NCBI RefSeq assembly: GCF_000427625.1
Contig: NZ_KE386569.1
Location: 3,615,789 to 3,679,788, forward strand
Direction of reading: 5' to 3'
DNA: 64,000 nt
From: Methylobacter luteus IMV-B-3098
GTDB taxonomy: Bacteria > Pseudomonadota > Gammaproteobacteria > Methylococcales > Methylomonadaceae
Below the pieces are notes generated by a model that saw only the letters and a program-made list of their open reading frames with translations, searched no databases and had not been told where the DNA came from. The position numbers and the translations under genes are program-made. Positions 7,733-11,874 of this stretch are shown piece after piece; the first letter of the stretch is position 1; each line of letters begins with the position of its first letter.

Positions 7733-8245
7733 ATGTTCGAAATCATAAAGCTATTATTTGATATCTGCCTGTTCAGGAAAGGGCCTCAGCATTTGCCGTA
7801 TTCTCCATGGCTGCTGCGCATAACGATAGTCATCTATGCCATCGTTAACTTTTTGATGATCAATATCAGTGTCGGCTGGCTTTATGCGCTGTTTATAGTA
7901 GCCATCGGCATCCTGATCGTTGTCGGATTCAGCTGGACCATGCTGTATTTTGGGCACAGGCCGGGGCGTTTTTATCAAACCACCTGCGCTTTATTGGGCA
8001 CCGATGCTCTGATCAGTTTTTTTGCCGTGCCCGGGGTGGCCTCAATGGCGATCGGAGGCATGACTTTATTGGCATTTTCGGTCATGATAGGTCTGATGAT
8101 CTGGCATTGGGCTATTACCGGCCATATTATCCGCAATGCGTTGGACCAGACATTGATGTTTGGCTTGAGTCTGGCGTTTTTATACCTGCTCGTATCGTAT
8201 CAGGTAATGGTCTTGTTGTTTCCTGAAGTTACCGGCGTTGAATAG
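7733..8245 (+). CDS. Four-helix membrane protein of unknown function
   Basis: 170 residues with about four hydrophobic helices: LLRITIVIYAIVNFLMINIS, WLYALFIVAIGILIVVGF, ALISFFAVPGV..LLAFSVMIGLMIW and a last one before PEVTGVE. The N-terminal KLLFDICLFRKGPQHLPYS is a conserved lead seen in uncharacterised proteobacterial membrane proteins. I cannot assign a function. The next gene, a universal stress protein, has its AGGAGG ribosome site overlapping this stop codon, so the two form an operon behind the tandem repeats at 7613. Confidence 0.7.
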   Translation: MFEIIKLLFDICLFRKGPQHLPYSPWLLRITIVIYAIVNFLMINISVGWLYALFIVAIGILIVVGFSWTMLYFGHRPGRFYQTTCALLGTDALISFFAVPGVASMAIGGMTLLAFSVMIGLMIWHWAITGHIIRNALDQTLMFGLSLAFLYLLVSYQVMVLLFPEVTGVE

Positions 8246-8253
8246 GAGGAATC

Positions 8254-8697
8254 ATGGGAGATTATAAACATATATTACTGGCGGCCGACTTTTCCACACA
8301 CGGGGAGGAAGTGGCCAGGAGGGCGAAGGATCTGGCTGACAAATACCAGGCAAGGCTGAGCGTTGTGCATGTCGTGGACAATCTGCCGCTGACCGATGCG
8401 GCGTATGGGCCGGTTATCCCGTTTGATCTGGACCTGACCGAAGAGCTGATGACGGCGGCAAAAGACAGATTGGCCAAACTGGCCGAAAGCCTGGGTATCG
8501 CCGATGATCGTCAGTGCATAGCGGTCGGCAGTCCGAAGCTGGAAATAATCAGGGTTGCCGAGGAAAACCAGGTGGATTTAATCGTAGTCGGCTCGCATGG
8601 CCGGCATGGACTGGCTTTGTTGCTCGGTTCGACTGCGAACGGCGTATTGCACCATGCGCATTGCGATGTGTTGGCCGTGCGTTTGAAAAGCGAGTGA
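8254..8697 (+). CDS. Universal stress protein, UspA family
   Basis: 147 residues, a single Usp domain. The start YKHILLAADFSTHGEEVARRA is typical, and the ATP-binding pattern G-2x-G-9x-G(S/T) is present as GSHGRHGLALLLGSTA near residues 111-126, so it should be of the nucleotide-binding class. Strong AGGAGG RBS. It sits 8 bases after the membrane-protein gene and is probably cotranscribed with it, suggesting a stress- or starvation-linked pair. Confidence 0.93.
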   Translation: MGDYKHILLAADFSTHGEEVARRAKDLADKYQARLSVVHVVDNLPLTDAAYGPVIPFDLDLTEELMTAAKDRLAKLAESLGIADDRQCIAVGSPKLEIIRVAEENQVDLIVVGSHGRHGLALLLGSTANGVLHHAHCDVLAVRLKSE

Positions 8698-9248: not shown

Positions 9249-9452
9249 TTATTTAGGTTGCACGTTAGCGGCGGTTAGGCCTTTTGGACCAGATTCGATG
9301 TCAAAGATGACTGTTTGGCCTGGGGACAGTGTTTTAAAACCTTCTCCCTGAATAACCGAATGGTGAACGAAAACATCTTCGCTACCTTCTGAAGGCTCAA
9401 TGAAACCAAAACCTTTTGTGTTATTAAACCACTTTACAGTGCCTGTTGCCAT
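9249..9452 (-). CDS. Cold-shock protein (CspA family)
   Basis: 67 residues, one cold-shock domain. RNA-binding motifs RNP1 (KGFGFIEP) and RNP2 (VFVHHS) are intact. Such proteins bind single-stranded RNA and melt secondary structure. Good CAGGAG RBS 7 bases before ATG. The roughly 140 bases between it and the CBS-protein gene hold its leader and promoter. Confidence 0.95.
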
Positions 9453-9597: not shown

Positions 9598-10008
9598 TTA
9601 TTGAAAAATTTTGTAGAGTCCGTCCAGCACCAGCGCATTGGGACTGACCATGCCGACGACTTGCTGATTTTCAACGACCGGCGCCCTGACCAGATCATAT
9701 TGGGCAAACAGCCTCGAACAGTAACGGATGTCCATGTCCGGGTCGACGCTGATAACCGGTTTCATCATGATTTCATAGACGTTGACGCGTTCCGGCGCGC
9801 GGTCTTTCGCCAGCACATGGCGCGCGATGTCGCCGGATGTGATCATGCCGAACTCATCGTCATCATGGCGTTTGTTGACGATCAGCACGGACGTCTTAAG
9901 CGATTTCATTTTTTTCAGGGCGTCGGCTACGGTCGCAATGCCGTCGATGCTGCCGACCTCGGTTTTCATGATATCCCTGACGCGGGTTATTGGAAGCTTG
10001 CCTGTCAT
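9598..10008 (-). CDS. CBS-domain protein of the DUF1538/PII operon
   Basis: 136 residues, two CBS motifs forming one Bateman module: VRDIMKTEVGSIDGIATVADALKKM near the start and VYEIMMKPVISVDPDMDIRYCSRLF in the second half, each followed by a GMI/GMV strand (GMITSGDIARHV, GMVSPNALVLDG). Such modules bind adenine nucleotides and gate enzymes or transporters. Its start overlaps the stop of the PII-like gene by 4 bases, and it is the last gene of a four-gene operon with two DUF1538 membrane proteins, so it is likely a regulatory subunit of that transporter. Confidence 0.9.
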   Translation of the reverse strand: MTGKLPITRVRDIMKTEVGSIDGIATVADALKKMKSLKTSVLIVNKRHDDDEFGMITSGDIARHVLAKDRAPERVNVYEIMMKPVISVDPDMDIRYCSRLFAQYDLVRAPVVENQQVVGMVSPNALVLDGLYKIFQ

Positions 10009-10355
10009 ATTTTATCCTCGATTTCATGGGTTAATTCTTCAACCTGATGCGTGACGCCAATGGCATCCTCGACATCGATCTGGAAAGCGATGCCGGTGCC
10101 GGGCCTGCTGTCGAACTGGGCTGCCTGGGCTACGGTTTCGAGAATATGCCGGCTCAGATGCTCTTCCACCAGTAACAGCAGGACATCGCGTTGCGTCTCA
10201 AGCGTCAGGCCAAAAAAGGTTTTTGAGCGTTTAAGACCTTCGCCTCGGGCATTATTGACAACGGTTGCGCCCTTGGCGCCGTTTTTACGCGCCGTTTCAA
10301 GCACCAGATCGGTTTTATCATCTTCGACAAGTACGATAATTAATTTGAAATGCAT
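10005..10355 (-). CDS. PII-like signalling protein of the DUF1538 operon
   Basis: 116 residues. The ferredoxin-like PII fold is recognisable: MHFKLIIVLVEDDKTDLVLETARKNGAKGATVV, a short T-loop-like segment (NNARGEGLKRSKTFFGL), then RDVLLLLVEEHLSRHILETV and GTGIAFQIDVEDAIGV near the C-terminus. It lacks the canonical T-loop tyrosine of GlnB/GlnK, so it belongs to the wider PII-like superfamily. It starts 8 bases after a DUF1538 gene and overlaps the CBS gene by 4, so all four are probably translated together. I infer that it senses a nucleotide or ion state and controls the DUF1538 pair. Confidence 0.82.
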   Translation of the reverse strand: MHFKLIIVLVEDDKTDLVLETARKNGAKGATVVNNARGEGLKRSKTFFGLTLETQRDVLLLLVEEHLSRHILETVAQAAQFDSRPGTGIAFQIDVEDAIGVTHQVEELTHEIEDKI

Positions 10356-10363
10356 AGTTTTCC

Positions 10364-11143
10364 TCAGGGGTTAGATGAAGTTTTGTTTCTGCTGAGCCAT
10401 TGCGCAATTTGCGCATAACCCAATACGGCAATGATGGGAAACAAGCTGGCAAAGGCGATCAGGCCAAAACCATCCAAAAGCGGGTTGCGGCCGGGTATGG
10501 CCTCGGCCAGTCCCAGTCCCAATGCGGTGACCAGCGGTACGGTAACCATCGATGTAGTCACCCCGCCTGAATCATAGGCCAGGCCGATAATCATTTTGGG
10601 GGCAAAATATGTCTGTATAGTGACGATGACATAGCCCGCGATAATGAAAAAAGAGAGATCCAGTCCTGTGACTATTCGGAACGTACCCAAGGCCAGACCC
10701 AAAGCGACCCCTATGGCAACCGAGATTCGCAGTCCCCAGGCAGGAATAGTTCCGCCCGAGATTTGCTCGACCTTAATGGCGACAGCCAGCAGGGCGGGTT
10801 CGGCCAAAGCCGTGGCGAAGCCGATGCTGGCAGCAAAAACATAGACCCAGGAATAGGTGAACCAGGATACAGGCTGGTTGACAGGATTAATGCCCAGGAA
10901 TTCAGGCGCGGTCAACTGGGACGCCATCAAGCTCCCAAGCGGGAACAACGCCATATCCAGTCCTTCCAGAAAGACAACAATGCCAAGCAGGACATAGAAA
11001 AAACCTATCAGTGTTCTCTTGGGATGGGCCAAGGGCCTGCGGATTACCAATAACTGAAAACCAATGATAGTTATCGCAATAGGCAGAATATCCCGGCAGG
11101 TTTGCAACAATTCCATTAATAAATGTATTGACCATTCAATCAT
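10364..11143 (-). CDS. DUF1538 (UmpAB-type) membrane protein, second subunit
   Basis: 259 residues, about seven or eight helices. Contains the family pattern LGTFRIVTGLDLSFF..GYVIV and LAYDSGGVTTSMVTVPLVTALGLGLA followed by PGRNPLLDGFGLIAFASLFPI. The upstream gene encodes a paralogue with the same motifs, overlapping by 4 bases. DUF1538 pairs have been reported as two-component monovalent-cation/proton antiporters (UmpAB) in Halomonas; that is literature recall, not shown here. The conserved DSG in the membrane repeat is a candidate ion site. Confidence 0.88.
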   Translation of the reverse strand: MIEWSIHLLMELLQTCRDILPIAITIIGFQLLVIRRPLAHPKRTLIGFFYVLLGIVVFLEGLDMALFPLGSLMASQLTAPEFLGINPVNQPVSWFTYSWVYVFAASIGFATALAEPALLAVAIKVEQISGGTIPAWGLRISVAIGVALGLALGTFRIVTGLDLSFFIIAGYVIVTIQTYFAPKMIIGLAYDSGGVTTSMVTVPLVTALGLGLAEAIPGRNPLLDGFGLIAFASLFPIIAVLGYAQIAQWLSRNKTSSNP

Positions 11144-11874
11144 ATGATCATTCCATAGGCCATGACGAAGATCATCGGCATCAATACCGCGAAGACGATG
11201 AGCCCAAAGCCGTCCGTCATCGGATTGCGGCCTTTGATGGCCGTGGCCAGGCCGACGCCGAGCGCGGTCACCAGCGGCACAGTAATGGTCGATGTGGCGA
11301 TGGCACCTGAATCATAAGCGATGCCAATGATCTCATCAGGCGCGAAGGGAGTCATGACGGCAACGCAGCCAAAACCTGCGAAAACCGGGTAATGGACCGG
11401 CCAGCCCCGGATAATCCTGAATACGCCGACTAGAATTGCAAAGCCGATGGACAGGGCAACGGTAACGCGCAGTCCCAAGGCGTAACTATCCTTGGCTACG
11501 CCAGATTGTTCAATAAGCCCCCCTGTAGCGGCTATGTTGGCGGCTTTGTCGGCAACGGCTATGAGCGCCGGTTCGGCAATCGCCGCGCCAAAGCCCAGAC
11601 AGAAAGCAAAAGCCAACAGCCAGAGCAGGCTGCCTTTACGGGCGAACGCGTAGGCCATGGATTCACCCAGCGGGAACAGGCTTTGTTCCAGTCCCTGAAC
11701 GAACAAGGTGAGGCCGAGCACGACCAAAAAAGTGCCGATGATTAATTCGGCCACATCGGGAATAGGCTGTTGGATAACGAAAACCTGAAAGATGATCACG
11801 ACAGCAAGAATCGGCGCCAGATCCAGAAAGCTGCTGAATAGCTGCCTGATAAAAGGATTGTTCAATAAGGGCAT
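11140..11874 (-). CDS. DUF1538 (UmpAB-type) membrane protein, first subunit
   Basis: 244 residues, multi-helix. Paralogous to the next gene: GVFRIIRGWPVHYPVFAGFG, IAYDSGAIATSTITVPLVTALGVGLA and KGRNPMTDGFGLIVFAVLMP align one for one with it. It is the first gene of the leftward operon DUF1538-DUF1538-PII-CBS. The promoter must lie in 11875-12056, which is shared with the divergent clpB. Predicted inner-membrane transporter subunit, probably a cation/proton antiporter. Confidence 0.88.
   Translation of the reverse strand: MPLLNNPFIRQLFSSFLDLAPILAVVIIFQVFVIQQPIPDVAELIIGTFLVVLGLTLFVQGLEQSLFPLGESMAYAFARKGSLLWLLAFAFCLGFGAAIAEPALIAVADKAANIAATGGLIEQSGVAKDSYALGLRVTVALSIGFAILVGVFRIIRGWPVHYPVFAGFGCVAVMTPFAPDEIIGIAYDSGAIATSTITVPLVTALGVGLATAIKGRNPMTDGFGLIVFAVLMPMIFVMAYGMII

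Follow-up and report, generated by a model that had tools for sequence, protein, structure and literature searches.

A DUF1538 membrane protein pair of Methylobacter luteus is encoded with a PII-like protein and an accessory two-CBS protein in a recurrent gene module

A characterized member of the DUF1538 family is UmpAB of Halomonas zhaodongensis, which the accessible part of its description reports to be a Na+(Li+,K+)/H+ antiporter and to confer antiport on its own in E. coli KNabc (PMC5484666). Two extra genes are thus unnecessary for transport there, and the terms PII, P-II and CBS are absent from the text of that paper (PMC5484666). Excerpts of other studies connect the family to growth conditions, DUF1538 being among the Pfam features tied to growth pH by machine learning (PMC13255231) and UmpAB homologs of cable bacteria being linked to salinity (PMC10030654, PMC12093952). 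Soluble regulators of transport include the PII-fold proteins GlnK, which acts on AmtB, and SbtB, which acts on SbtA. Two-CBS modules serve as nucleotide sensors for transport in MgtE, CorB/MpfA and OpuA, as far as the portion of PMC10710835 available to us goes. In the literature searched, which leaves out most subscription journals, we found no description of a form that combines a DUF1538 pair with both kinds of regulator.

We describe such a form in the window, the whole 64,000-nucleotide stretch of the Methylobacter luteus genome that was analysed. Four minus-strand open reading frames at 9598-11874 encode UmpA-like, UmpB-like, PII-like and two-CBS proteins (Table 1) with a spacing of -4/+8/-4: the two membrane protein genes overlap by 4 bases, a gap of 8 bases leads to the PII-like gene, and the CBS gene overlaps the latter by 4. 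The four-gene operon and its overlaps, as proposed in a first-pass annotation of this DNA, are borne out by the frame coordinates and by Pfam and NCBIfam matches. A promoter and terminator scan gave results at chance level. A cold-shock protein gene lies directly downstream on the same strand, and a universal stress protein gene farther along adjoins a hydrophobic protein that has no Pfam match at E ≤ 0.001. The 5.03 Mb genome contains one DUF1538 pair, and the closest named relatives of its UmpA-like protein (≤83% identity) are from gammaproteobacterial methanotrophs (Methylococcales).

Table 1. Features of the locus and its surroundings, in window coordinates
Feature	Position	Strand	Evidence or remark
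umpA-like, DUF1538 membrane subunit 1 (244 aa)	11140..11874	-	PF07556 209 bits; NCBIfam UmpA 339 bits, cut-off 490
UmpA-like E101, invariant acidic	11572..11574	-	21/21 rows of A4; fused homolog E101 64/65 rows of A3
UmpA-like D188 of DSG motif	11311..11313	-	21/21 rows of A4
umpB-like, DUF1538 membrane subunit 2 (259 aa)	10364..11143	-	PF07556 222 bits; NCBIfam UmpB 308 bits, cut-off 500
UmpB-like E115	10799..10801	-	30/30 rows of A5
UmpB-like D191 of DSG motif	10571..10573	-	30/30 rows of A5
PII-like protein (116 aa)	10005..10355	-	PF00543 44.6 bits; model mean pLDDT 87.6, PII topology; Foldseek best GlnK/PII
Codons for K45-T-F-F-G-L50, T-loop region	10206..10223	-	placed by alignment to solved PII
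GAGGAT within PII-like frame (E113-D114), likely RBS of CBS gene (start codon 10006-10008)	10014..10019	-	E113 codon bias
Two-CBS (Bateman) protein (136 aa)	9598..10008	-	PF00571 64.3 bits, two stretches
Cold-shock protein gene	9249-9452	-	PF00313
Universal stress protein gene	8254-8697	+	PF00582
Hydrophobic protein	7733-8245		

Like H. zhaodongensis UmpAB, the membrane pair is encoded by homologous DUF1538 genes that overlap, are similar in length and belong to the same Pfam family; the published work confirms for UmpAB the association with cation/proton antiport that the first-pass annotation had cited (PMC5484666). Both proteins score well over the PF07556 cut-off of 22.6 bits. Unlike the Halomonas proteins, however, they fall under the curated UmpA and UmpB equivalog cut-offs (NF041627 and NF041628), which counts against the antiporter reading. 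The UmpA model found nothing over its cut-off in 369 genomes of the class or in 20 genomes of its best match's order, and the only two matches at E ≤ 1e-120 in the 369 class genomes (423 and 408 bits) have PII and CBS genes downstream. Each subunit of the window pair also matches the NCBIfam model of the other (177 and 190 bits), in keeping with the ancestral duplication already suggested. The shared motifs on which that suggestion was based, AYDSG and GRNPxxDGFGLI, are present in both proteins, although two residues and not one separate NP from DGFGLI.

The predicted fold of a natural UmpA-UmpB fusion (L187) has a mean pLDDT of 91.8 and a pTM of 0.90. In this model two predicted helices leave a gap in which the conserved E101 is found, and a short helix has D177 close to its end, an arrangement suggestive of the layout common in ion-binding transporters. 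Foldseek found no PDB match to the model at E ≤ 0.001, all rows being weak, and VIA-align 2 found none at Z ≥ 8 among 996 chains, a search in which single-domain matches to so long a model can escape. Searching PDB sequences by phmmer with the UmpA-like protein of the window returned nothing at E ≤ 1. The fold modelled for the fused homolog is possibly one without a solved representative in the PDB.

The PII-like protein exceeds the PF00543 cut-off of 25 bits, and its model has the order strand-helix-strand-strand-helix-strand-helix. Foldseek returned 224 PDB matches to the model at E ≤ 0.001, the best being GlnK/PII at E about 2e-6, so structure prediction, the check named in the first-pass annotation, does yield a PII fold; at the sequence level the resemblance to PII proteins of solved structure is slight, the best profile E being 1.6e-4. 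The genome holds three P-II family genes, and since the other two score higher and lie far from the operon, the PII-like protein of the operon is a separate specialist.

Canonical GlnB and GlnK proteins are marked by the lysine of a GDGK B-loop, a glutamine at the base of the T-loop and a modified tyrosine. The PII-like protein departs from this pattern. The G-x-G of the B-loop is kept, the lysine position (89) being I, V, L or M in 46/46 non-redundant CBS-linked PII-like proteins, and at least 40 of these 46 carry K, N, E, T or V where the T-loop-base glutamine would be; nucleotide binding by the protein is thus not assured. It is also without the C-terminal disulfide-containing redox loop (R-loop) that the accessible text of PMC10991534 describes for SbtB, since there is no cysteine among its 116 residues. 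The T-loop region presents a different picture, each residue of T46-F-F-G-L50 exceeding 90% conservation among the PII-like proteins of separate-gene clusters, whether CBS-linked (60 proteins) or CBS-less (26 proteins), as would be expected if the T-loop touches the constant partner UmpAB. The loop sequence differs from TFFGL in the clade with a fused DUF1538 protein of about 600 aa (for example L222 and L213), which counts against universality. The arrangement is like GlnK-AmtB in that a PII-fold protein is encoded beside its presumed membrane partner, with the T-loop as the likely contact, but the membrane family is another one, the T-loop-base glutamine and modified tyrosine are not kept, and the PII-like gene is itself followed by one for a CBS or another PII-like protein. 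With SbtB-SbtA it shares the apparent dedication of a PII-like protein to a secondary transporter, whereas the transporter family is different, SbtB is a weak match of our PII-like profile (E 0.11-0.12), and in DUF1538 clusters the next gene is often one for CBS or a second PII-like protein.

To see what stands downstream of DUF1538 genes more widely, we searched 398 Pseudomonadota genomes and found a DUF1538 match in 126, of which 118 supplied the 122 clusters counted; some second clusters and the other 8 genomes are outside this count, one of the latter (G148) having PII and CBS genes in a short locus (L103). A PII-like gene is downstream of DUF1538 in 116/122 clusters, and also in two second clusters outside the 122 (L255 and L256). 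CBS genes are downstream in 65/122, the 57 clusters without one including 4 that run into a contig end. As a control, the 1.5 kb upstream, available for 101 clusters, held PII in 0/101 and CBS in 2/101. The most frequent form is the separate pair followed by PII and CBS (60/122), then the pair with PII (26 clusters, and 2 ending at a contig edge after PII). Fused DUF1538 proteins of about 600 aa are followed by two PII genes in 18 clusters and by one in 3, with another cut after PII, and fused proteins of about 500 aa by PII and CBS in 5. The remainder are an incomplete DUF1538 copy with PII-PII, a cluster at which the contig ends before PII, and 5 clusters with no PII beside DUF1538. Two genomes among these five (G084 and G116, both drafts) keep a PII-CBS pair on a different contig from umpAB (L259 and L260 versus L198 and L212), two (G093 and G121) carry their PII-like genes at other sites, and one (G245) has no PII-like match genome-wide at the threshold used. 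By eye, the PII-CBS pair of L260 adjoins a malic-enzyme-like gene. Two loci have DUF1538 clusters side by side: fused-PII-CBS and then PII-DUF1538-DUF1538, with the PII before the pair, in L159, and DUF1538-DUF1538-PII and then fused-PII in L213.

The 80 named-relative loci most similar to the window, which were picked by similarity and hence are not independent, have PII downstream in 75 cases and CBS in 74; the remainder are cut by contig ends (5 before PII, 1 after). Among the 74 loci with the full order, L041 has broken reading frames, and L031 is from Methylotuvimicrobium buryatense. Recurrence of the four-gene order in these relatives, together with its presence as separate genes in the phylum survey, indicates that the arrangement is not due to chance. 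Rare linkage of DUF1538 to PII genes would have told against the first-pass annotation, and the survey shows the opposite. The interpretation given there is partly supported. With CBS unseen in 57 of the clusters and a second PII-like protein present instead in one clade, several forms exist besides the four-part one, and the PII-like protein is the core partner and the CBS protein an accessory.

Co-occurrence at the level of whole genomes follows the same pattern. A PII-like profile built from 20 rows, all DUF1538-linked copies, matched 120/398 genomes at a threshold of our choosing (E ≤ 1e-12), 115 with DUF1538 and 5 without, and left 11 DUF1538 genomes without a match, including fused-PII-PII genomes with divergent PII. 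Fisher's test gives p 9e-80 with relatedness ignored, the genome counts not being phylogenetically independent; both families are found in 43/213 genera. A CBS profile (27 rows, DUF1538-linked copies; E ≤ 1e-22, likewise our choice) places the CBS subfamily in 71/398 genomes, and 71/71 also carry DUF1538 and the PII-like protein. DUF1538 was further found in 9 plasmid-collection records. The 7 examined, from Bacillota and Alphaproteobacteria, all have a P-II gene directly downstream of DUF1538, and their examined stretches have no match to the CBS model of this subfamily. In clostridial plasmids among them, a fused DUF1538 gene precedes one for a P-II protein some 220 aa long (L263:3862-4530, L265:3862-4530, L266:4652-5341, L268:3896-4549); in a Pfam scan of two of these proteins (222 and 217 aa), that of L263 had two P-II stretches and that of L268 one, in its second half. 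The 5 genomes with a PII-like but no DUF1538 match, and unlinked paralogs elsewhere, count against a gating role. No DUF1538 gene was seen alongside the unlinked copies inspected. By eye, a FAD-dependent dehydrogenase-like gene adjoins PII-like paralogs away from DUF1538 in L241, L242, L244, L257 and others, and an acetylglutamate-kinase-like gene is near some unlinked paralogs.

A quick tree of 130 clusters, for which one in four of the named set was taken and cut clusters were excluded, requires 9 changes of the CBS label, at least 7 of them forced by well-supported branches; several branches are long, deep placements are unsure, and gain and loss of CBS are indistinguishable on it. The PII-like protein is thus the partner that stays, while the presence of CBS varies. 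The fused-PII-PII form occupies one side of a single branch, one deep clade in which a second PII-like protein stands in place of CBS.

The CBS protein has the two-CBS architecture of the transport sensors MgtE, CorB/MpfA and OpuA but, unlike the modules in the portion of PMC10710835 available, it is a separate protein, apparently coupled in translation to the PII-like protein, and is not built into the transporter. Across 62 non-redundant CBS proteins, G119 of CBS2 is found in 62/62, S or T at 122 in 55/62, and D60 of CBS1 in 56/62. These residues belong to the ribose-phosphate motif usual in CBS domains, but the threonine that precedes D60 is not conserved (15/62), which counts against a nucleotide-sensing role. 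The coupling to the PII-like gene is suggested by a putative ribosome-binding site inside the PII tail together with the overlapping ATGA. The E113 codon is GAG in 53/54 glutamate codons from 60 CBS-linked loci, compared with 19/59 to 45/59 at six other conserved PII-like glutamate positions, and an RBS-like motif is present in the last 24 bases of PII in 50/60 CBS-linked versus 8/27 CBS-less loci. Of four CBS-less PII tails inspected, three end in TAA. The site and the ATGA are both kept in L145, which lacks CBS and is close kin of CBS-bearing loci, and a GAGGA is kept in L162.

We considered two features of the PII-like protein as marks of a CBS partnership and set both aside. The conserved acidic tail (V112-E113), which differs or decays in PII-like proteins where CBS is missing, had been a candidate CBS contact and is largely explained by the embedded ribosome-binding site. 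Positions 69, 73, 94 and 97 differ between CBS-linked and CBS-less sets, but the CBS-less rows are mostly one clade, and these positions are mostly unchanged in the smaller CBS losses inspected.

These data establish a conserved module, in which a known antiporter type is encoded with dedicated and modular sensor-like cytoplasmic proteins. On balance we think it probable, if by no means firmly so, that the module is an UmpAB-type monovalent-cation/proton antiporter with its own post-translational control by the PII-like and CBS proteins. UmpA and UmpB would form the membrane exchanger, as published for the Halomonas pair. The PII-like protein would dock on the cytoplasmic face via the TFFGL of its T-loop, as GlnK does on AmtB and SbtB does on SbtA, and hold or release the exchanger according to its bound ligand. 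The two-CBS protein would serve as another sensor, with adenine nucleotides as its likeliest ligands, and act through or beside the PII-like protein; its slot can be left empty or, in one clade, be occupied by a second PII-like protein. Such control may serve to stop cation efflux and proton entry when the energy state forbids them. Adenine nucleotides as the ligand are our guess, made from the fold only. We extend the idea more tentatively, and with some doubt, to a widespread antiporter family that is PII-gated via the T-loop, has an interchangeable second sensor (CBS, a second PII-like protein or a tandem PII-PII) and possibly an unsolved fold. The accessible text of PMC10710835 indicates that PII control seems restricted to transporters able to act as trimers; UmpAB is described as a heterodimer, and this counts against PII gating.

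The window pair might instead move another substrate, such as bicarbonate, ammonium or another ion, with the PII-like protein controlling it as in carbon and nitrogen uptake. The PII partners listed in the available part of PMC10710835 are indeed ammonium, nitrate, urea and bicarbonate transporters, and the literature searched contains just one DUF1538 pair with an assay (PMC5484666). We nevertheless regard this reading as unlikely, as the invariant acidic residues of both subunits fit cation/proton binding and the reported ties of the family are to growth pH and salinity. The PII linkage in 116/122 clusters could also be that of an obligatory structural subunit, the PII-like and CBS proteins then being parts of a four-part transporter and not sensors. 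This seems improbable in the face of the activity reported for Halomonas UmpAB alone, of the minimum of 7 CBS label changes that the tree requires, and of PII and CBS being known ligand-binding folds.

Mere co-transcription, with the two soluble proteins acting elsewhere, would account for the PII-like paralogs that some genomes carry without an adjoining DUF1538 gene. It is hard to square with the tight co-occurrence across 398 genomes, which extends to two genomes where the genes are unlinked, and with linkage in two phyla, and we judge it very improbable. We give scarcely any credence to gating by c-di-AMP, read by the PII-like protein as in PstA or by the CBS protein as in OpuA. Such roles have precedents in the accessible parts of reports on PstA (PMC4316997, PMC4475381) and on the CBS domains of a transporter (PMC10710835), and when 48 of the 71 CBS-bearing genomes were tested, the cyclase domain PF02457 was present in 23. 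However, PF02457 has no match in the M. luteus genome or in the other 20 genomes of the same class among those 48, which makes c-di-AMP an unlikely ligand here.

UmpAB has been characterized as a two-protein machine, and if dedicated sensors are normal for DUF1538 antiporters then assays of the bare pair miss their regulation. Should control of the antiporter by the PII-like and CBS proteins be confirmed, this would be the first PII-controlled ion antiporter, as far as the literature searched shows, and PII regulation would reach beyond nutrient uptake into ion/proton exchange. The alternation of CBS and a second PII would amount to a natural experiment in sensor swapping. There would also be a role open to testing for a PII-like subfamily whose plasmid-borne members are annotated as 'P-II family nitrogen regulator' despite the lost B-loop lysine, and homeostasis of pH and salt would be coupled to the adenylate state of the cell.
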